In this document: piece by piece, positions 679-50,933 of the stretch
How the letters are laid out: the number at the start of each line of letters is the position of its first letter
Numbering within the stretch: position 1 is the stretch's first letter
Virus record (IMG/VR): IMGVR_UViG_3300045922_000020
Span: 1 to 50,933 of that record
Length of the DNA: 50,933 bases
Reading direction: 5' to 3' (one strand)
Source of the DNA: a virus
The notes under the pieces: generated by a model
What the model was told of the DNA's origin: nothing
Databases searched by the model: none
The model's input: the letters and a program-made list of their open reading frames with translations, nothing else
Position numbers and translations under genes: made by a program

Positions 679-725
679 GTGCATAGTCGGCGACTGTGCC
701 CGCTCACCCTCAACAGGAGAATCCG

Positions 726-3700
726 ATGATCTCGAACTCCCGCCCGACCTTTCCCATGCCGATCTGCGAGTCTATCTGGGATATGAAGTATCGTCTGAAG
801 GAGGCTGACGGCACGCCTGTCGACATGACGATGGAGGATACTTGGCGTCGGGTCGCTGGCGCTCTGGCCGAAGCCGAGAGACCTTCGGAACGAGCCGAAT
901 GGGCGCAGAAGTTCTTCGAGGCGATGGTCGACTTCAAGTTCATCCCAGCCGGTCGCATCCTCGCTGGCGCAGGCACGGGCAGGAACGTCACGCTTAGCAA
1001 CTGCCTTTCGGGCGAGACCCTGATCCTTACTGCCGAATATGGCCTCGTTGCCATTGGCGAGATTGCCGGGGAGACCGTTCACGTTCTCGTTGGCAGCGGG
1101 GATTGGGTTGCGGCGCCGATCAACTTGTTCGGCGAGCAGCCTGTCGTGCCGGTGACACTTCGTGGAGGCTACAATGGTCGCTTGCGCAAGACGATCCATG
1201 CGACTTCCAACCATCGCTGGATTCTCGCTGACGGCTCGGAGCGCACGACTGAACACCTCATCGCGGGAAACATGCTGAAGTTCGTTCGGCGCCGCAACGT
1301 GAAGGACACCCCCGACTATCGGGCGGGTGTCCGGCACGGCGTTGTCTATGGCGACGGAAGCCAACGCCCCGAAGGGGAGGTCAAGCTGCGCCTGTGCGGC
1401 GCGAAAGCGGTCCTGATCGACTTCTTTTCCGACTGGACGATCACCCGCCCGGAATCTTACGGAGGCGATCCCTGCGTTTACGGAGGCCGCCGCGAACAGC
1501 GTGACTTCGATCTGAAAGCCCTTCCCGTGGAGGGCGCCAGTGTGGAATACCTCACGGGGTTCCTGCGCGGCTGGATGGCGACTGACGGATGTGTCTCTGT
1601 CGGCAAAGCCCTCATTTCCTGCGGTGCGGAAGAAGCCGATTGGCTGAAACGATATGGGCCTGTTGCCGGTATGGAAGTCTCCTGCGCCACGAAACTCGGA
1701 GACGTTACGAATTACGGCCAGAGGAACAAATCGCTTTTCAATGTTCATTTCCATCGCTGGACAATGATCCCGGAGGATTTCCTGTTGGAAGCCCACCGAA
1801 CTCGGTTCGTCCCGATAGAGTATCATTGGATCGTGGAATCTGTCGGGGAGGTCGGAACGGTCGTTCCGGTTTACTGCCCGCGCGTCGTGACGACCGATTC
1901 GGTGCAACTCGATCTCGGCATCCACACGGGCCAGTGTTTCACGATGGGCACGATCCCCGACAGCATGGACGGGATTTTCACGCACCTTCGCGAGGCCGCC
2001 CTGACCATGCAACAAGGGGGCGGCATCGGCTATGATTTCTCTACCATTCGGCCCAAGGGCGCGCTCGTGAAGGGCGTGGCGGCCGACGCCAGCGGGCCGC
2101 TGACCTTCATGGACGTGTGGGATTCGATGTGCCGCACGGTCATGTCGGCCGGTTCCCGTCGAGGGGCCATGATGGCCACCATGCGCTGCGACCACCCCGA
2201 CATCGAAGCCTTCATCGAAGCCAAGGCCGACCCGAAGCGGCTCAGGATGTTCAACGTCTCGGTCCTCGTGACCGACGCCTTCATGGACGCCGTTCGCGAC
2301 GACAAGCCGTGGCGCTTGCACTTCGAGAACCGGCAAGGCGAGACGTTGAAGGAGAAGGTCGTCAGCGCCCGCGTCCTGTGGGAAAAGATCATGCGCTCGA
2401 CCTACGACTACGCCGAGCCGGGCGTGATCTTCATCGACCGCGTGAACGAGGCCCACAACCTGCGCTACCTCGAACGGATCGCCACGACGAACCCTTGCGG
2501 CGAGAAACCGATGGGGCCGTATGCCTCGTGCCTTCTCGGCTCGATCAACGCGACAGCCTTCGTCCGCGCCCCGTTCGGTGACGGCGCGATCTTCGACTTC
2601 CTTGCGATGAACAAGGTCGTCCGAACCGCAGTCCGCATGATGGACAACGTGGTCGATGTGGGCGGTTTCCCGTTGCCCGCCCAGCGCGAGAAGGCCGAAC
2701 AGGACCGGCAACTCGGCCTCGGCATCACGGGCCTTGCGGACGCTCTGGCGATGATGGACGTGATCTACGGTTCGGACGAGGCGGTCGAGGTGACTTCCGC
2801 GATCATGCGGGAGATCGCCTTGACGGCCTACGAGACCTCGGTCGCTCTTGCCGTCGAAAAGGGGGCCTTCCCCACGTTCCAAGCCGACAAGTTTCTGGCT
2901 CCGGGCACGTTCGCTTCGAGGCTGCCCGAAGACCTCAAGGACCGAATCCGGGAGTTCGGCCTTCGCAACTCGCTGCTGACCTCCATCGCGCCTACGGGCA
3001 CGATCAGCCTCGTGGCAGGGAATCTGTCCTCGGGGATCGAGCCTATCTTTGCGACGAACTACGAGCGGAAAGTCCTTCTGCCGGACGGAACGAGGAAGGC
3101 CGAGGTCGTTCAGGACTACGCCGTCTGGCTCTACCGCGACATGCTCGGCAACGTGGATGGCGCTTTGCCGCCCGCTTTCGTGACCGCGCAGACCATCACT
3201 CCCGAGGCCCACGTCAGGATGCAGGCCGCCGCGCAGGAGTGGGTCGACTCGTCGATCAGCAAGACCGTGAACGTGCCCGAAGACATCTCGTTCGAGAACT
3301 TCAAGGCCGTCTATCAGCTTGCCTACGACTCGGGCTGCAAGGGCTGCACGACCTATCGGCCGAACCCCGTCACGGGAAGCGTCCTGAGCGTCGTCGAGGA
3401 CAAGCCCAAGGCCGAGGCGCCGAAGCCCGTCGAGGCCGCTTCTGTGCCTTCCCGGAAAGTCGCAGAGGCCGTTCCGGCTCGTCCCGAGGCTCTGGCCGGG
3501 ACCACCTACAAGATCAAGTGGCCGCAGTCGCCGCACGCCATCTACATCACCATAAACGACATTGATGATGCAGGGGACGGCAGCGAGCATGACTGGACCG
3601 TGCGGCCGTTCGAGATCTTCATCAACTCGAAGAACCTCGATCACTACGCTTGGACCGTGGCGCTGACCCGCATGATCTCGGCGGTGTTCCGGCGCGGGGG

Positions 3701-3992
3701 CGACGTGTCCTTCGTGGCCGAGGAACTGAAGGCTGTGTTTGATCCCAAGGGCGGCGCGTGGGTGGACGGCAAGTATGTGCCTTCGCTGCTGGCGGCCATC
3801 GGCGGCGTGATCGAGAGGCACCTGAACGGCGGCGAAGCCCCTGCCCCTGAACCGGACGAGCAACTTGAGCTTTTCGGGTCGGGTGCGGTCGTCCCTTCGC
3901 CGGACCCGTGCCCGGCGTGCGGCAGTTTCAACCGCAAGCTGGAAAACGGCTGCTGGGTCTGCCTCGACTGCGGGCACTCGACGTGCGGTTGA
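726..3992 (+). CDS. nrdJ: Adenosylcobalamin-dependent (class II) ribonucleotide reductase with intein
   Basis: 1,088 aa precursor that would reduce ribonucleotides to deoxyribonucleotides using a B12-generated radical. Visible reductase signatures: LSN|CF at the intein junction (first redox Cys), NPCGEKP (radical Cys with Asn and Glu partners), a second redox Cys in YASCLLGSIN, the APTGTISLVAGN loop with SSGIEPIF, and a Cys-rich tail (CPACG...CWVCLDCGHSTCG) typical of class II C-termini. Residues 93-403 are an intein; removing it leaves about 777 aa, a normal NrdJ size. ATG at 726 is chosen over a GTG at 696 because AGGAGA lies 5 nt upstream. A promoter for the next gene overlaps its stop codon. 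A long antisense frame is a shadow. Confidence 0.95.
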   Translation: MISNSRPTFPMPICESIWDMKYRLKEADGTPVDMTMEDTWRRVAGALAEAERPSERAEWAQKFFEAMVDFKFIPAGRILAGAGTGRNVTLSNCLSGETLILTAEYGLVAIGEIAGETVHVLVGSGDWVAAPINLFGEQPVVPVTLRGGYNGRLRKTIHATSNHRWILADGSERTTEHLIAGNMLKFVRRRNVKDTPDYRAGVRHGVVYGDGSQRPEGEVKLRLCGAKAVLIDFFSDWTITRPESYGGDPCVYGGRREQRDFDLKALPVEGASVEYLTGFLRGWMATDGCVSVGKALISCGAEEADWLKRYGPVAGMEVSCATKLGDVTNYGQRNKSLFNVHFHRWTMIPEDFLLEAHRTRFVPIEYHWIVESVGEVGTVVPVYCPRVVTTDSVQLDLGIHTGQCFTMGTIPDSMDGIFTHLREAALTMQQGGGIGYDFSTIRPKGALVKGVAADASGPLTFMDVWDSMCRTVMSAGSRRGAMMATMRCDHPDIEAFIEAKADPKRLRMFNVSVLVTDAFMDAVRDDKPWRLHFENRQGETLKEKVVSARVLWEKIMRSTYDYAEPGVIFIDRVNEAHNLRYLERIATTNPCGEKPMGPYASCLLGSINATAFVRAPFGDGAIFDFLAMNKVVRTAVRMMDNVVDVGGFPLPAQREKAEQDRQLGLGITGLADALAMMDVIYGSDEAVEVTSAIMREIALTAYETSVALAVEKGAFPTFQADKFLAPGTFASRLPEDLKDRIREFGLRNSLLTSIAPTGTISLVAGNLSSGIEPIFATNYERKVLLPDGTRKAEVVQDYAVWLYRDMLGNVDGALPPAFVTAQTITPEAHVRMQAAAQEWVDSSISKTVNVPEDISFENFKAVYQLAYDSGCKGCTTYRPNPVTGSVLSVVEDKPKAEAPKPVEAASVPSRKVAEAVPARPEALAGTTYKIKWPQSPHAIYITINDIDDAGDGSEHDWTVRPFEIFINSKNLDHYAWTVALTRMISAVFRRGGDVSFVAEELKAVFDPKGGAWVDGKYVPSLLAAIGGVIERHLNGGEAPAPEPDEQLELFGSGAVVPSPDPCPACGSFNRKLENGCWVCLDCGHSTCG
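1002..1934 (+). other. Intein with LAGLIDADG homing endonuclease (within nrdJ)
   Basis: A 311-aa in-frame insertion. It begins with Cys1 in block A (CLSGETLILT). Block B is TIHATSNHRWIL, with the Thr and His expected for N-S acyl shift. Two LAGLIDADG-like motifs follow: YRAGVRHGVVYGDG and LTGFLRGWMATDG. A block-F-like stretch VPVYCPRVV precedes the end. The last residues are H-T-G-Q, followed by extein Cys+1 (CFTMG). The usual terminal His-Asn is missing: the end is Gly-Gln with a His three residues before it. Inteins ending in Gln are known, so splicing remains plausible. The insertion site is the codon of the reductase's redox-active cysteine, which doubles as the splicing nucleophile. Confidence 0.92.
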
Positions 3993-4044: not shown

Positions 4045-4076
4045 GGTCCCTAACCCTCGAAAGGAGAACTAAGACC

Positions 4077-5180
4077 ATGACCCAACTCATGCAGGCTTCC
4101 CGCCAGTGGGCTTCGCGCCCGGCCGACGAGCGTTTCGTTTCGCTTCCCGACCTCTACAACGTGGTTCGCGATAATCGCGAGCGGTCGCTGGCCGCGTCGA
4201 TCAGCACGCGGAAGATCGAGTTTGCCCCGCACCCGGGCGACACCGCCAAGGGCCTTGTCGCGAACACGCCGGATCGCACCATGACCCCGACGAACTGGTC
4301 CTTTGGCCAGCTTGCGAACCTTGCCAGTGCCCCGGCGTCCTACCTGAAGCGCCTTCCCGCGCCGATGGTTGCCGACTGCGTGAACTACGGCCTCCGCTTC
4401 CTGCGTGATGCCGAGGACGTGGGCCTGCTGGCCTGTCAGGGCGCGAACGGCGAGATGGACGAACTCCGGGCCGCTACCGGGCCGCGCTATGGCCGCATCT
4501 GGAACGAAGAGATCGTCGGCGCGCTGATGCAGAAGTTCGGCGACGGCCGCACCGGCGATTTCCGCGTGCCCGGCGAGTTCGGCAAGAAGGTTCCGATCAC
4601 CAAGGACAACACGACGATCTACGGCTCCGACCGCGACATCTTCGTGTTCCTCGCCGACGAGGATCGCCGGATCGAGGTCGCCAACCGGCGCAACGGCCAG
4701 CCGGGGTCGCTCGCTCGCGGCTTCTTCGTGTGGAACTCCGAGGTCGGGGCGCAGTCCATCGGCGCGGCCTTCTTCCTGTTCGATTACGTCTGCAAGAACC
4801 GGATCGTGTGGGGCGTGCAGGAGTTCAAGGAGATCCGCCTGCGGCACACGTCCTCGGCCCCGGATCGCTGGCTGGAAGAAATCACGCCGGTCCTGACGCA
4901 GTATGCTCATGCTTCGGCCGAGCCGGTTGCGGAGACTATCCGGGCGGCGCAGGAGAAGAAGGTGGCCGACGACCTTGACGCCTTCCTCGCCAAGCGGTTC
5001 ACGAAGTCCGAAGCGACTGCGGTCAAGGCGGCGCATGAGCGCGAGGAAGGCCGCCCCATCGAGTCGGTGTGGGATGTCGTCACGGGCGTCACGGCGCACG
5101 CCAAGACCCTGCCCTATCAGGACGCCCGCGTGGCGTTCGAGCGGCAGGGCGGCGCGATCCTCGATCTGGTTGCGGCCTGA
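4077..5180 (+). CDS. DUF932 phage/plasmid-like protein
   Basis: 367 aa. The layout matches the DUF932 family often found on phages and plasmids: an N-terminal segment with TPTNWSFGQLANLASAP and ASYLKRLPAP, the central GPRYGRIWNEEIV, and FFVWNSEVGAQSIGAAFFLFDYVCKNRIVWG. The biochemical function of the family is not established; roles in plasmid or phage maintenance have been proposed. The start is fixed by AAAGGAGAA 8-10 nt upstream of ATG 4077. It is the first gene after a strong promoter with a hairpin leader, so it is probably well expressed. It is followed by the first copy of the 56-nt hairpin element. Confidence 0.82.
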   Translation: MTQLMQASRQWASRPADERFVSLPDLYNVVRDNRERSLAASISTRKIEFAPHPGDTAKGLVANTPDRTMTPTNWSFGQLANLASAPASYLKRLPAPMVADCVNYGLRFLRDAEDVGLLACQGANGEMDELRAATGPRYGRIWNEEIVGALMQKFGDGRTGDFRVPGEFGKKVPITKDNTTIYGSDRDIFVFLADEDRRIEVANRRNGQPGSLARGFFVWNSEVGAQSIGAAFFLFDYVCKNRIVWGVQEFKEIRLRHTSSAPDRWLEEITPVLTQYAHASAEPVAETIRAAQEKKVADDLDAFLAKRFTKSEATAVKAAHEREEGRPIESVWDVVTGVTAHAKTLPYQDARVAFERQGGAILDLVAA

Positions 5181-5189
5181 TCGAGGTCT

Positions 5190-5245
5190 GGGGCGGAAGG
5201 CTCAGGACTGAAGCGAAACCCATCGTTCTCTCGGCCCTCCGCCCC
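5190..5245 (+). repeat. 56-nt hairpin element, copy 1
   Basis: 5190-5202 (GGGGCGGAAGGCT) pairs with 5233-5245 (GGCCCTCCGCCCC), a 13-bp stem with one mismatch and one G-U. The loop carries GAAACCCA at element positions 26-33. Copy 2 at 5783-5838 has the same length, the same first 15 nt and the same GAAACCCA position. It starts 10 nt after the DUF932 gene and ends 29 nt before the next ATG. No U-tract follows. Confidence 0.75.
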
Positions 5246-5274
5246 CACGCAACTTCAACCCCATGAGGTGATCC

Positions 5275-5778
5275 ATGCCTGCGAAACTGAAACCCTTGCC
5301 GCAGATCAGCGTTGCCGATTTCGCCCGCAAGGCAACGGAAGGCGCGAAGAACGCCGAAGACGCGGCCAAGGCGCTGCTGGCGATGGCAAAAGCCGATCCT
5401 GACCTCTACCGGAAGATCATGGAGCCTTACGAGTTCTCGGCCTGCCGGGACGCCATTGACCGCCTTCGCCTGAACGAGCGCGCCGCGATCTGGAAAGCCG
5501 CGCAAGGAGAAACGAGGTCGAACACAAGCGTTCGGGCGCTCGCTCGTGCCAACACCTACACACTTCTCGACTTCCCGTTGCCTTCCGGCACACGGCTTGG
5601 CGATGCGACGGTTTCCGACTTGACGGACGCCATCGGCGTCTATCGGGCACAGGCGAGCGACATGGCCCGCAAGGCGCGGTTCCTCGAACTTGTCTGCGGC
5701 AGGCTGAAGGAGGGTCAGCGGGTCTCGGAAGCCCTGACCCCGAAGGAATTGGAGGATGTCCAGAAGGAAGTCCTCTGA
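5275..5778 (+). CDS. Hypothetical protein between paired hairpin elements
   Basis: 167 aa, not recognised. Mostly predicted helical: an Ala/Lys-rich N-terminal half (ARKATEGAKNAEDAAKALLAMAKADPDLY), a charged central helix, then a second helical C-terminal half ending in a Lys/Glu-rich helix. No membrane segment, signal peptide or Cys motif. The start is supported by GAGGTGATCC directly upstream. The gene is bracketed by two copies of a 56-nt hairpin element, an arrangement not seen around any other gene here. It could be a nucleic-acid-binding or adaptor protein, but nothing in the sequence proves this. Confidence 0.75.
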   Translation: MPAKLKPLPQISVADFARKATEGAKNAEDAAKALLAMAKADPDLYRKIMEPYEFSACRDAIDRLRLNERAAIWKAAQGETRSNTSVRALARANTYTLLDFPLPSGTRLGDATVSDLTDAIGVYRAQASDMARKARFLELVCGRLKEGQRVSEALTPKELEDVQKEVL

Positions 5779-5782
5779 TTCA

Positions 5783-5838
5783 GGGGCGGAAGGCTCATCG
5801 GGCGTTTGAAACCCAGAACACGAGCAGCCTTCCGCCCC
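5783..5838 (+). repeat. 56-nt hairpin element, copy 2
   Basis: 5783-5795 (GGGGCGGAAGGCT) pairs perfectly over 13 bp with 5826-5838 (AGCCTTCCGCCCC). GAAACCCA is at element positions 26-33, as in copy 1, while the remaining loop sequence differs. Constant stem, constant central loop motif and constant length with diverged flanks suggest selection on structure. Confidence 0.8.
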
Positions 5839-5849
5839 ACCTTTCTTCC

Positions 5850-5995
5850 GATCTCCGCCTGCGGAAACCGCAACACCAGCGAAACTCGGTCATAGATCGA
5901 ATCTGTGGACGGAGATCAGAGGGAAGGCCATCGCGGAAGCGAAAATCACTGATTCGGCGCCGACCCTCTGCCTCCTGCTACCGCAGCGAAACCCA
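5850..5995 (+). other. Chain of further hairpins upstream of the IS110-like gene
   Basis: This 146-nt segment has no ORF. GATCTCCG (5850-5857) pairs with CGGAGATC (5910-5917); inside are a small hairpin TGCGG-AAA-CCGCA (5860-5872) and a loop GCGAAACTCG. CAGAGGG (5917-5923) pairs with CCCTCTG (5964-5970), with GCGAAAATCA in its loop. GCGAAACCCA recurs at 5986-5995. Together with copy 2 of the 56-nt element, almost the whole 239-nt gap (5779-6017) can fold, with GAAA-containing loops. This may be a structured RNA or an elaborate leader; no promoter was recognised. Confidence 0.5.
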
Positions 5996-6017
5996 AGCAA
6001 CCACCGAGGTAATTCCC

Positions 6018-6839
6018 ATGAACATCCATGCCCCCATCCACGAAGCGCCGGTCTACCATCAAGAGTTTGAGGCCCACCGAGAGGACGAAGATCGGCGCTT
6101 CGCGGACCCTGCCGTTGCCGAGATCGTCGAACTCTGGCGGCAACGGCAGGACTTTCACCGTGCGGAGAAGCGCCTGACGCTTCAGATCAAGGCCATCCTT
6201 CGCCGCTTCACTGACGGCGACAAGGATGCTGCGGACAAGCTCTACAAGCTCGTTTCTGCCGGTGTCGCCGAACAGGATGTGATGATGGCTGTTCTTCCGC
6301 TTCGGGCCGCACAGGACGGCATCCGGCAGTCCCGTGAGGGCATCGAGAAGACCCTGCGCAAGCTCGCGGTCAGACTGCCGATCTATGCCTGCTTCGTCAG
6401 GGACGTGAAAGGCTTCGGCGAACTCGGCCTTGCGGCCACGGTCGGCGAGATCGGCGACCTGTCGGCCTACCGGAGCGTGTCGGCGGTCTGGAAGCGCGCG
6501 GGTCTCGCCGTCATTGGCGAAGGCCGCCAGCGCAAGGTCGCGGGTGACGCGGCGTTCGAACACGGCTACAGCCCCGTGCGCAGGTCGGTTTTCTGGACGC
6601 TGGCGGACTCGATGCTCAAGTCTCAAGGAAAGGGCGAAGACGCCGGTCCCTATCGGCGCATCTACGACGCTCGCAAAGCCTACGAGCGCCCGCGCGTTCA
6701 GTCTGATGCCCACGCCCACAACCGCGCGATGCGGGTCATGTTCAAGGCTCTGCTGAAAGACATGGCCGTCGCGTGGAAAGCCCTCCCCGGCCAAGCTCGC
6801 GTCGAAAACCACACCAGTCACGCTGGGGAGGGCAACTGA
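6018..6839 (+). CDS. IS110-like Transposase_20-domain protein lacking the RuvC-like domain
   Basis: 273 aa. The N-terminal 60 residues are polar and acidic. Residues about 35-130 form a coiled-coil-like helical region. Residues about 130-260 match the C-terminal half of IS110-family transposases: VKGFGELGLAATVGEIGD (helix-hairpin-helix), WKRAGLAV, then SPVRRSVFWTLADSML and GPYRRIYDARKAYE. The N-terminal DEDD/RuvC-like catalytic domain of genuine IS110 transposases is absent, and no clear catalytic Ser is seen at the usual place after AGL. It is therefore unlikely to be a mobile element and more likely a domesticated DNA- or RNA-binding protein. A 239-nt structured gap lies upstream, and the next small gene starts on its stop codon. 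Confidence 0.7.
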   Translation: MNIHAPIHEAPVYHQEFEAHREDEDRRFADPAVAEIVELWRQRQDFHRAEKRLTLQIKAILRRFTDGDKDAADKLYKLVSAGVAEQDVMMAVLPLRAAQDGIRQSREGIEKTLRKLAVRLPIYACFVRDVKGFGELGLAATVGEIGDLSAYRSVSAVWKRAGLAVIGEGRQRKVAGDAAFEHGYSPVRRSVFWTLADSMLKSQGKGEDAGPYRRIYDARKAYERPRVQSDAHAHNRAMRVMFKALLKDMAVAWKALPGQARVENHTSHAGEGN

Positions 6840-15691: not shown

Positions 15692-15892
15692 TTAGGGCGA
15701 GTAGATGACGTTGATCGCAGCTTCGGTGACGCCTTCACTATACGTGATGACGTTGATCGCAGCTTCGGTGACGCCTTCACTATACGTGATGATGTTTAGG
15801 CCCTGCTCGCTCAGGAACAGTTCGTAGTTCAGCGGCGGCCCGTTGTCGATCCGCCTGCTCGACAATATCGCCATGAGCGTCGGTATGGTCAT
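15692..15892 (-). CDS. Small protein with exact 14-residue duplication
   Basis: 66 aa. Start ATG 15892 overlaps the stop of the DUF2793 gene. The C-terminal half contains TYSEGVTEAAINVI twice in tandem (42-nt identical DNA units), preceded and followed by partial copies (NIITYSEG..., NVIYSP). Probably a tail-fibre accessory, perhaps a short fibrous extension. No family recognised. Confidence 0.6.
   Translation of the reverse strand: MTIPTLMAILSSRRIDNGPPLNYELFLSEQGLNIITYSEGVTEAAINVITYSEGVTEAAINVIYSP
15704..15787 (-). repeat. 42-bp tandem repeat (2 identical copies)
   Basis: Copies at 15704-15745 and 15746-15787 are identical over 42 bp and in phase with the reading frame (14 codons), so copy-number change would lengthen or shorten the protein without a frameshift. 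Confidence 0.85.
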
Positions 15893-46324: not shown

Positions 46325-46732
46325 TCAGATGGCCGAATCGCCATCTTCTTCGTCGCCCTCACCCTCGTCCGCCAGCGGGTTCTCGCCCGCGCGGAAAGCC
46401 TTAAGAAGCTCCATCACCTTGCCGAAGTGCTTCGGGTCGATGTTGGTCAGCCTGTCGGCGCCGAAGTGCTCGCAGACCGCAGAGTGGGCCTGCTTGGCGG
46501 CTTCCTTGTCGATCTTGAGCGACTCACCGGCGAACGCCGCGATGTCGGCTGCCGTGACGGCGGCAGGCTTCGTGGACTTGGTGGCAGCGGGCTTGGGGGC
46601 GGCAGGCGCGGCAGCGGGCTTGGGGGCGGCAGGCGCGGCGGCGGGCTTGGCCGAGCCGAGCATGGCGTCAAGGCGCTTGGTGTTTTCTTCCAGCGCCTCG
46701 GCGAGACGAGTCAGGAGGGCTTCGATGCTCAT
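46325..46732 (-). CDS. Hypothetical acidic protein, first gene of leftward operon
   Basis: 135 aa from ATG 46732 (AAGAGGA upstream). N-terminal helix SIEALLTRLAEALEENTKRLDAML, probably a coiled coil, followed by an Ala/Pro/Lys linker built from a 9-residue unit (KPAAAPAAP) repeated in tandem by 27-nt DNA repeats. Next is a compact helical domain (VTAADIAAFAGESLKI, DPKHFGKVMELLKAFRAGE) and the tail EGEGDEEDGDSAI. Genomic position with recombination genes suggests a role in DNA annealing or regulation, but no family is recognised. Confidence 0.75.
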   Translation of the reverse strand: MSIEALLTRLAEALEENTKRLDAMLGSAKPAAAPAAPKPAAAPAAPKPAATKSTKPAAVTAADIAAFAGESLKIDKEAAKQAHSAVCEHFGADRLTNIDPKHFGKVMELLKAFRAGENPLADEGEGDEEDGDSAI

Positions 46733-50513: not shown

Positions 50514-50562
50514 CCCTAGTCGTAAAAGCCCCAAGGCGGGAATACCTGACCGCCTTACCGCC

Positions 50563-50652
50563 TATTGACTGGACAGTCAGTCAAAATAGCCTGACCGCCT
50601 GACCGCTTATTGACTGGACAGTCAGTCAGAATAGCCTGACCGCCTGATCGCC
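50563..50652 (+). repeat. 45-bp direct repeat (two copies) with palindromic core
   Basis: Copies at 50563-50607 and 50608-50652 differ at a few bases. Each contains TTGACTG-GACAGT-CAGTCAA (or A to G at the end in copy 2), which can also pair as TGACTG-GA-CAGTCA. The repeat grades into the 8-bp array. Confidence 0.75.
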
Positions 50653-50933
50653 TGACCGCCTGACCGCCTGACCGCCTGACCGCCTGACCGCCTGACCGCC
50701 TGACCGCCTGACCGCCTGACCGCCTGACCGCCTGACAGCCTGACCGCCTGACCGCCTGACCGCCTGACCGCCTGACCGCCTGACCGCCTGACCGCCTGAC
50801 CGCCTGACCGCCTGACCGCCTGACCGACTGACCGCCTGACCGCCTGACCGCCTGACCGCCTGACCGCCTGACCGCCTGACCGCCTGACCGCCTGACCGCC
50901 TGACCGCCTGACCGCCTGACCGCCTGACCGCCT
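50635..50933 (+). repeat. 8-bp tandem array (CCTGACCG), about 37 copies
   Basis: Nearly perfect CCTGACCG units from 50635 to the window end, with three single-base variants (T at about 50648, A at 50737, A at 50827). The plus strand has TGA stops in every frame. The minus strand is open in all frames and would give a repeating RSGGQAVR, but has no start codon. The window stops inside the array, so true length is unknown. Confidence 0.9.

Follow-up and report, generated by a model that had tools for sequence, protein, structure and literature searches.

The occurrence, in a virus, of a small IS110-like protein stripped of its nuclease half and lying next to 239 nucleotides (nt) of hairpin-forming noncoding DNA has led us to wonder what kind of system such a locus encodes. 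The window analysed here is the whole IMG/VR virus record IMGVR_UViG_3300045922_000020 (50,933 nt), and an earlier note drawn from its letters had proposed a domesticated IS110 protein with a guide-like or scaffold RNA, as a plausible undescribed system. Our analyses lead us to conclude with high confidence that positions 5190-6839 form a TIGR-TasA system of the stem-loop-array type; this confidence covers the whole explanation, namely the identity of the locus, guided DNA binding without cleavage, and a partner gene as a standing component. TIGR-TasA, a system related to CRISPR and described only recently, relies on a small protein that finds DNA by means of hairpin RNAs (Faure et al. 2025 Science, PMC12045711). 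The main text of that article presents the stem-loop array type with TasA, including an example locus from Peromyscus leucopus gut, and mentions, with a mycobacteriophage reference, that tailed phages contain TIGR loci, so that the kind of system is already known and not undescribed. Protein identity, unit grammar, box C/D pairing and the linkage of array, partner and tasA, as well as the turnover of spacers, were computed here.

A Tas protein without nuclease

The protein at the centre of the locus is encoded as follows.

6018 to 6839, + strand: tasA, solo Nop-domain Tas protein, 273 amino acids, isoelectric point 9.5

This open reading frame (ORF) is real and, as the earlier note had recognized, corresponds to the RNA-binding half of IS110 enzymes without RuvC. 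Neither the Pfam scan nor the AlphaFold2 model (pLDDT 85.9, pTM 0.79) contains a DEDD/RuvC domain, and no nuclease family was found among the Pfam matches or in the model, in which a disordered tail is followed directly by a Nop-type coiled coil and a C-terminal domain (residues 1-23 and 265-271 are disordered). The Pfam match to Transposase_20 is weak (E 0.049, under the gathering score), and PHROG 4285, named "transposase", matches at 7e-19. Searched alone against PDB chains with phmmer, TasA finds 9mty (TIGR-TasR) at 2.7e-18; a 21-member TasA profile finds 9mty at 3.9e-32 and TasH at 4.4e-19, and at E<=1 only TasR and TasH are matched among PDB chains, with no IS110 chain. The fold is indeed shared with IS110 recombinases (Z 14.3 and 13.7), but TasR is a better match (Z 18.3 over 201 residues), TasH scores 16.7 and box C/D Nop5 8.4, and Foldseek ranks these families in the same order. 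Being closer to TasR and TasH by profile and by fold, the protein does not bear out a domesticated IS110 origin; it is a nuclease-less Tas protein, TasA by the definition given in the main text of Faure et al. (PMC12045711).

PADLOC matched neither TasA nor the partner protein described below. Relatives in viral contigs escaped a single-sequence TasA search and were found by the profile search. It is worthy to note that one of them, at 5671-6525 of locus L020, has neither stem-loop units nor the partner gene, and no clear dual-repeat array was found in the flanking DNA examined.

Dual-spacer units around and within tasA

The noncoding segment 5779-6017 (239 nt) is strongly structured, as had been claimed: its folding energy is -94.1 kcal/mol versus -72.5 +/- 4.65 kcal/mol in shuffles (z -4.65), and 0/200 shuffles fold as well as the real sequence. 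The three hairpins announced for this gap lie where they had been placed, except that the middle one is better drawn at 5840-5927 than at 5850-5917, and the array proves larger than the gap, with further units at 5190-5245, 6037-6106 and 6780-6833. Loops of the GAAA type are present, yet they belong to a longer loop motif, CGAAACCCA, which is conserved and found again in relatives. The suggestion of a guide-like RNA beside the protein was sound, for the loops have a guide layout: each unit reads 5' arm, CCA (box C), 9 nt, CG(A)AACCCA, 9 nt, CG (box D), 3' arm, and the two 9-nt stretches are taken as spacers A and B.

5190 to 5245, + strand: unit W0 (scanner), 5' arm GGGGCGGAAGGC, box C TCA, spacer A GGACTGAAG, loop CGAAACCCA, spacer B TCGTTCTCT, box D CG, 3' arm GCCCTCCGCCCC; fold z -3.24
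5783 to 5838, + strand: unit W1 (scanner), 5' arm GGGGCGGAAGGC, box C TCA, spacer A TCGGGCGTT, loop TGAAACCCA, spacer B GAACACGAG, box D CA; perfect stem of 12 bp; fold z -5.70
5840 to 5927, + strand: hairpin W2, irregular, with a small hairpin inserted and overlapping the arm of W3; possible spacers, tentative, TGCGGAAAC / GCGAAACT(C); fold z -5.55
5917 to 5970, + strand: unit W3 (scanner), box C CCA, spacer A TCGCGGAAG, loop CGAAAATCA, spacer B CTGATTCGG, box D CG; fold z -2.83
5970 to 6009, + strand: half unit W4, tentative, read from the sequence, loop CGAAACCCA, short CCTC/GAGG stem
6037 to 6106, + strand: unit W5 (scanner), N-terminal coding part of tasA, spacer A TCAAGAGTT, loop TGAGGCCCA, spacer B CCGAGAGGA; fold z -4.46
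6780 to 6833, + strand: unit W6 (scanner), C-terminal coding part of tasA, spacer A AGCTCGCGT, loop CGAAAACCA, spacer B CACCAGTCA; fold z -4.86

A strict scanner recognizes five units, which all fall within 1.65 kb (5190 to 6833) of the + strand; it found none elsewhere in the 50.9-kb window, and dinucleotide-shuffled windows yield 0.3 strict units each. Spacers measure 9 + 9 nt in 5/5 strict units, and boxes C and D are present in all of them (TCA in two, box D CA in one). W0, which sits upstream of the partner gene, and W1 have an identical 5' arm and different spacers. W2 is not recognized by the strict scanner, and W4 is truncated and terminates in the ribosome-binding site of tasA (GAGG), a half unit before tasA being likewise present in L016, Morrissey and X2_25. 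No Rfam family matched anywhere in the window.

The upstream segment is kept in homologues, as the earlier note anticipated. Several units surround tasA on the coding strand in 21 of 24 viral relatives and a single weak unit in one more, so that a common grammar accompanies 22/24, with unrelated stems and with boxes and 9-nt spacing retained; in named phage relatives, too, the noncoding DNA near tasA contains repeated units whose loop motif is shared. The 36-nt dual-repeat form occurs in Microcystis phage Mvi-JY20, and L024 has an array of period 36. When units are picked by their boxes alone, the stem score reaches >=5 in 117/134 picks near tas versus 3/14 elsewhere or on the other strand. 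Eight inner stem positions pair in 80-92% of picks with 3-4 pair types each, and the pairing drops once the register is shifted: the stems are variable palindromes that replace the edge repeats. Position 1 of box C and position 2 of box D, the pairing of which is not demanded by the scanner, covary over the window and its relatives as the TasR structure predicts (C-G 122, T-A 7, T.G 2, C.A 0; p 3e-10), a p value that overstates independence since 6/7 T-A pairs come from one locus (L028). In Rhodococcus phage Peregrin (L003, 3612-4051) the units are AT-rich with degenerate boxes (CTAATACCCA) and long stems, and the strict scanner misses them.

W5 and W6 lie within the tasA coding sequence, over the N- and C-terminal tails that are modelled as disordered. 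In five viral loci (L010, L022, L029, L030 and L031) the tasA ORF starts 4 nt inside the end of the partner gene and crosses three to six units of the array without closing; over the combined 1730 nt there are 0 stops in the tasA frame versus 14 in each other frame. Each ORF was taken at its longest possible length, which makes this result suggestive and not a proof. From these frames, translation in the five loci appears to take in the array as an N-terminal extension of TasA.

A partner gene accompanies stem-loop tasA

The gene directly upstream of the hairpin gap is conserved, and the earlier note had overlooked it.

5275 to 5778, + strand: partner gene, 167 amino acids, all-helical, without known domain

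An iterative profile search found the partner family in 23/25 loci, once per locus, on the tasA strand and directly upstream of tasA, save for L018 where, unlike in the other loci, it lies downstream; no other ORF in a set of 2066 matched the partner profile. The gene is absent only from L020 and L024, both of which also lack stem-loop units, and the converse search by subfamily found the family only in contigs that also have tasA. The window partner has a homologue in X2_25 (E 7e-10), and profile comparison places in the same family gp75 of mycobacteriophages, the gene before tasA (98.0%, E 1.8e-13), and gp49 of Gordonia phage Spooky (99.1%, E 1.8e-18).

No Pfam domain, ParB included, was found among 22 partner members, of which nine match a PHROG of unknown function (phrog_4604); a search for phrog_4604 in four whole genomes gave no match, the controls being equally unmatched. 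The full alignment lacks conserved stretches and the model is all-helical (pLDDT 88). Nothing above noise came out of the fold search in PDB and BFVD, which is no proof of a new fold, and the sequence has no match in PDB.

According to the main text of PMC12045711, TasA is without clear associations with other proteins and TasParB is the sole operon partner named. TasParB-TasA operons (Faure et al. 2025) resemble the window in that tasA has a conserved neighbour with units around and between both genes; they differ in that the window partner has no ParB or other Pfam domain and its arrays are stem-loop, theirs dual-repeat. Compared with the published stem-loop TIGR-TasA, the window adds the upstream helical partner and units within tasA; neither feature is in the main text, and this holds for the constancy of the partner beside stem-loop tasA as well (the supplement lies outside the comparison).

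Spacers are replaced between near-identical phages

The behaviour of the spacers can be followed between close relatives. Two Rhizobiales prophages (L013 and L014) have partner genes 92% and tas genes 89% identical, and in nine orthologous units identity reaches 96% and 91% in the arms, 96% in box C, 100% in box D and 80% in the loop; the spacers are 23% identical (38/162 positions versus 44.5 expected from shuffled pairing), which is the random level. A similar picture emerges from the A1 mycobacteriophages (BPBiebs31 gp74 and relatives), for which 76 Mycobacterium records match: across seven distinct arrays, arms and boxes are 98.7% and tasA 97.7% identical, spacer columns 35%. Spacers thus act like guides, being replaced wholesale between near-identical phages while their surroundings stay constant. 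Neither this complete turnover against fixed stems nor the placement of units in the reading frame is in the main text of PMC12045711, leaving aside its supplement, and the origin of spacers is listed there as an open question.

Units are shared as in a mosaic among A1 mycobacteriophages, unit 4 being common to Ohno789 and Sumter and unit 5 to BPBiebs31 and Carlyle. Because whole units are shared in this way, the pattern points to unit exchange by recombination within the conserved stems. It is tempting to go further and to imagine a two-protein system, TasA with its helical partner, in which guides reside partly or wholly in the translated tasA frame, so that their maturation would destroy the message and limit TasA by feedback, and in which spacers would be renewed by unit swapping through stem recombination and not by a CRISPR-like adaptation enzyme; we regard this scenario as possible but distinctly tentative.

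An exonuclease gene of the Cas4 family stands just downstream of tasA in A1 mycobacteriophages (L049 4035-4835, L057 1134-1557, L058 1140-1557) and overlaps tasA by a few bases in Sumter. Cas4 takes part in CRISPR spacer acquisition. A link between this neighbour and spacer renewal is conceivable, and the neighbourhood may be a coincidence.

Target searches and weaknesses of the proposed identity

The spacers gave no match above chance to their own genome or to the phages searched. Spacer pairs of the window match their own genome no better than shuffled spacers, and a comparison of 133 units with all loci, allowing up to 2 mismatches, gave 14 cross-targets versus 15 in the control. Exact target sites of W1 and W3 were found 3 and 2 times in viral contigs, in unrelated genes, with 0 matches for one swapped control; we dismissed these matches as chance since the contigs concerned are without units and resemble the window little. 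For six A1 mycobacteriophage units, queried two target sites per query against all phage records, 50,697 records contained partial matches only and no full one.

Several points weigh against our conclusion. None of the searches, in the own genome, viral contigs or phage records, gave a convincing natural target, and for this reason a DNA-silencing role can only be inferred. W0 and W1 have TCA instead of CCA as box C, W2 and W4 are irregular, the T-A box pairs come mostly from the single locus mentioned above, and the window locus was characterized from sequence and structure models alone.

Alternative explanations

Could the locus be a domesticated or decaying IS110 element, a transposase that lost its DEDD domain beside a bridge RNA or its remnant? 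The weak Transposase_20 match, the common fold (Z 13.7-14.3) and the annotation of relatives as "transposase" speak in its favour, and IS110 elements with bridge RNA (IS621, ISCro4) do share the RNA-binding fold and a guide RNA beside the gene. The sequence profile, however, matches TasR and TasH and not IS110. Where IS621 and ISCro4 have a DEDD/RuvC domain and one bridge RNA, the window protein has neither that domain nor any profile match to them, and many short tandem units of two 9-nt spacers each lie on both sides of tasA and inside it; the gap shows these repeated units in place of one bridge RNA bearing a donor and a target loop (element ends were not systematically searched). A partner gene and gene order conserved across very different phages fit an IS110 remnant poorly as well, and on profile, fold and array grammar we reject this origin as very improbable. 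Less probable still is that the hairpins have nothing to do with TasA and serve as ordinary regulatory leaders, terminators or replication hairpins: strong hairpins in an intergenic gap without any Rfam family would suit this, but their grammar recurs beside tasA in 22/24 viral relatives with unrelated stems, and both viral loci without units are also without the partner gene.

Two other alternatives accept a guided TasA and differ as to its target. TasA and its guides might regulate genes of the phage itself, for instance the lytic-lysogenic choice, which would agree with the lack of a nuclease and with the position of the A1 mycobacteriophage locus, which shares the direction of the immunity repressor gene and lies about 1 kb away from it. 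The failure of the window spacer pairs to match their own genome better than shuffled ones argues against it, and the wholesale replacement of spacers between near-identical phages is incompatible with a fixed self-target, so we consider self-regulation unlikely. Slightly less likely in our view is that the units guide TasA to RNA, in an antisense mode or in the manner of small nucleolar ribonucleoproteins (snoRNPs); the Nop proteins of box C/D snoRNPs do target RNA and have the same fold (Z about 8), and 9-nt spacers are short. Yet in the nearest relatives, TasR and TasH, it is DNA and not RNA that is bound and cut, according to the main text of PMC12045711, and two adjacent spacers suit a mode that reads two DNA strands.

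Proposed mode of action

The TIGR-TasA system that we favour shares with TIGR-TasR (PDB 9mty) and TIGR-TasH (PDB 21kl, 9w02-9w04) the Nop fold, homology, tandem 9-nt spacers and CCA as box C; the window protein has no nuclease domain, and its array is stem-loop where theirs is dual-repeat. Unit processing, the Tas dimer and dual-strand targeting are borrowed from these published relatives. By this analogy, the locus would give a transcript with five to seven hairpin units, in each of which box C (CCA) and box D (CG/TG) enclose two 9-nt spacers and a palindromic stem, replacing the edge repeat, closes the hairpin. Units would be cut out of the transcript and a TasA dimer would hold one of them, spacer A pairing with one DNA strand and spacer B with the other, if the homology to the systems in the main text of PMC12045711 extends so far. 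A target site would then read spacer A, 0-2 nt and the reverse complement of spacer B, an order that we derived from the 8-nt 3' overhang and the C-5 rule reported there. Because TasA has no nuclease, it would bind, unwind and bend the target without cutting it, and the most likely outcome would be that expression or replication of competing mobile elements is blocked. The helical partner (5275-5778) would be a standing second component; its role and the silencing of competitors are the parts of the explanation that we infer.

Other features of the window

A DUF932 gene (4047-5180) adjoins the TIGR-TasA locus and has relatives in Synechococcus phage S-ESS1 and Erythrobacter phage ZS04, annotated there as "integrase". 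In S-ESS1 the DUF932 and ThyX genes are ordered as in the window and no tasA was found, and for this reason S-ESS1 looks like an empty site relative to the window. Farther upstream, in a ribonucleotide reductase ORF (696-3992), the N-terminal and barrel domains are separated by about 318 extra residues (Pfam reductase parts at residues 28-96 and 414-887); the insert starts with CLSGET and ends near HTGQC and is probably an intein, although the Pfam scan of this ORF found no intein family. The right end (50545-50933) consists of a tandem 8-nt unit (CCTGACCG) in >30 copies up to the last base, which could be either a genuine terminal repeat or an artefact of the assembly end. Exact tandem duplications occur at 15704-15787 (42 nt x2) and 46583-46636 (27 nt x2), both multiples of three.

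Meaning for the TIGR-TasA family

When TIGR was published, its natural targets, the origin of its spacers and the role of nuclease-less TasA were all left open. Near-identical phages that differ mainly in their spacers show the turnover of guides directly. Since spacers turn over fast and self-targets are absent, the targets would be changing opponents such as other mobile elements, and this argues against a fixed housekeeping target. The partner, which almost always accompanies stem-loop TasA, suggests that TasA does not act alone. Finally, the A1 mycobacteriophages, with M. smegmatis as laboratory host and dozens of sequenced isolates, make the function, the partner and the targets of these systems testable in culture.
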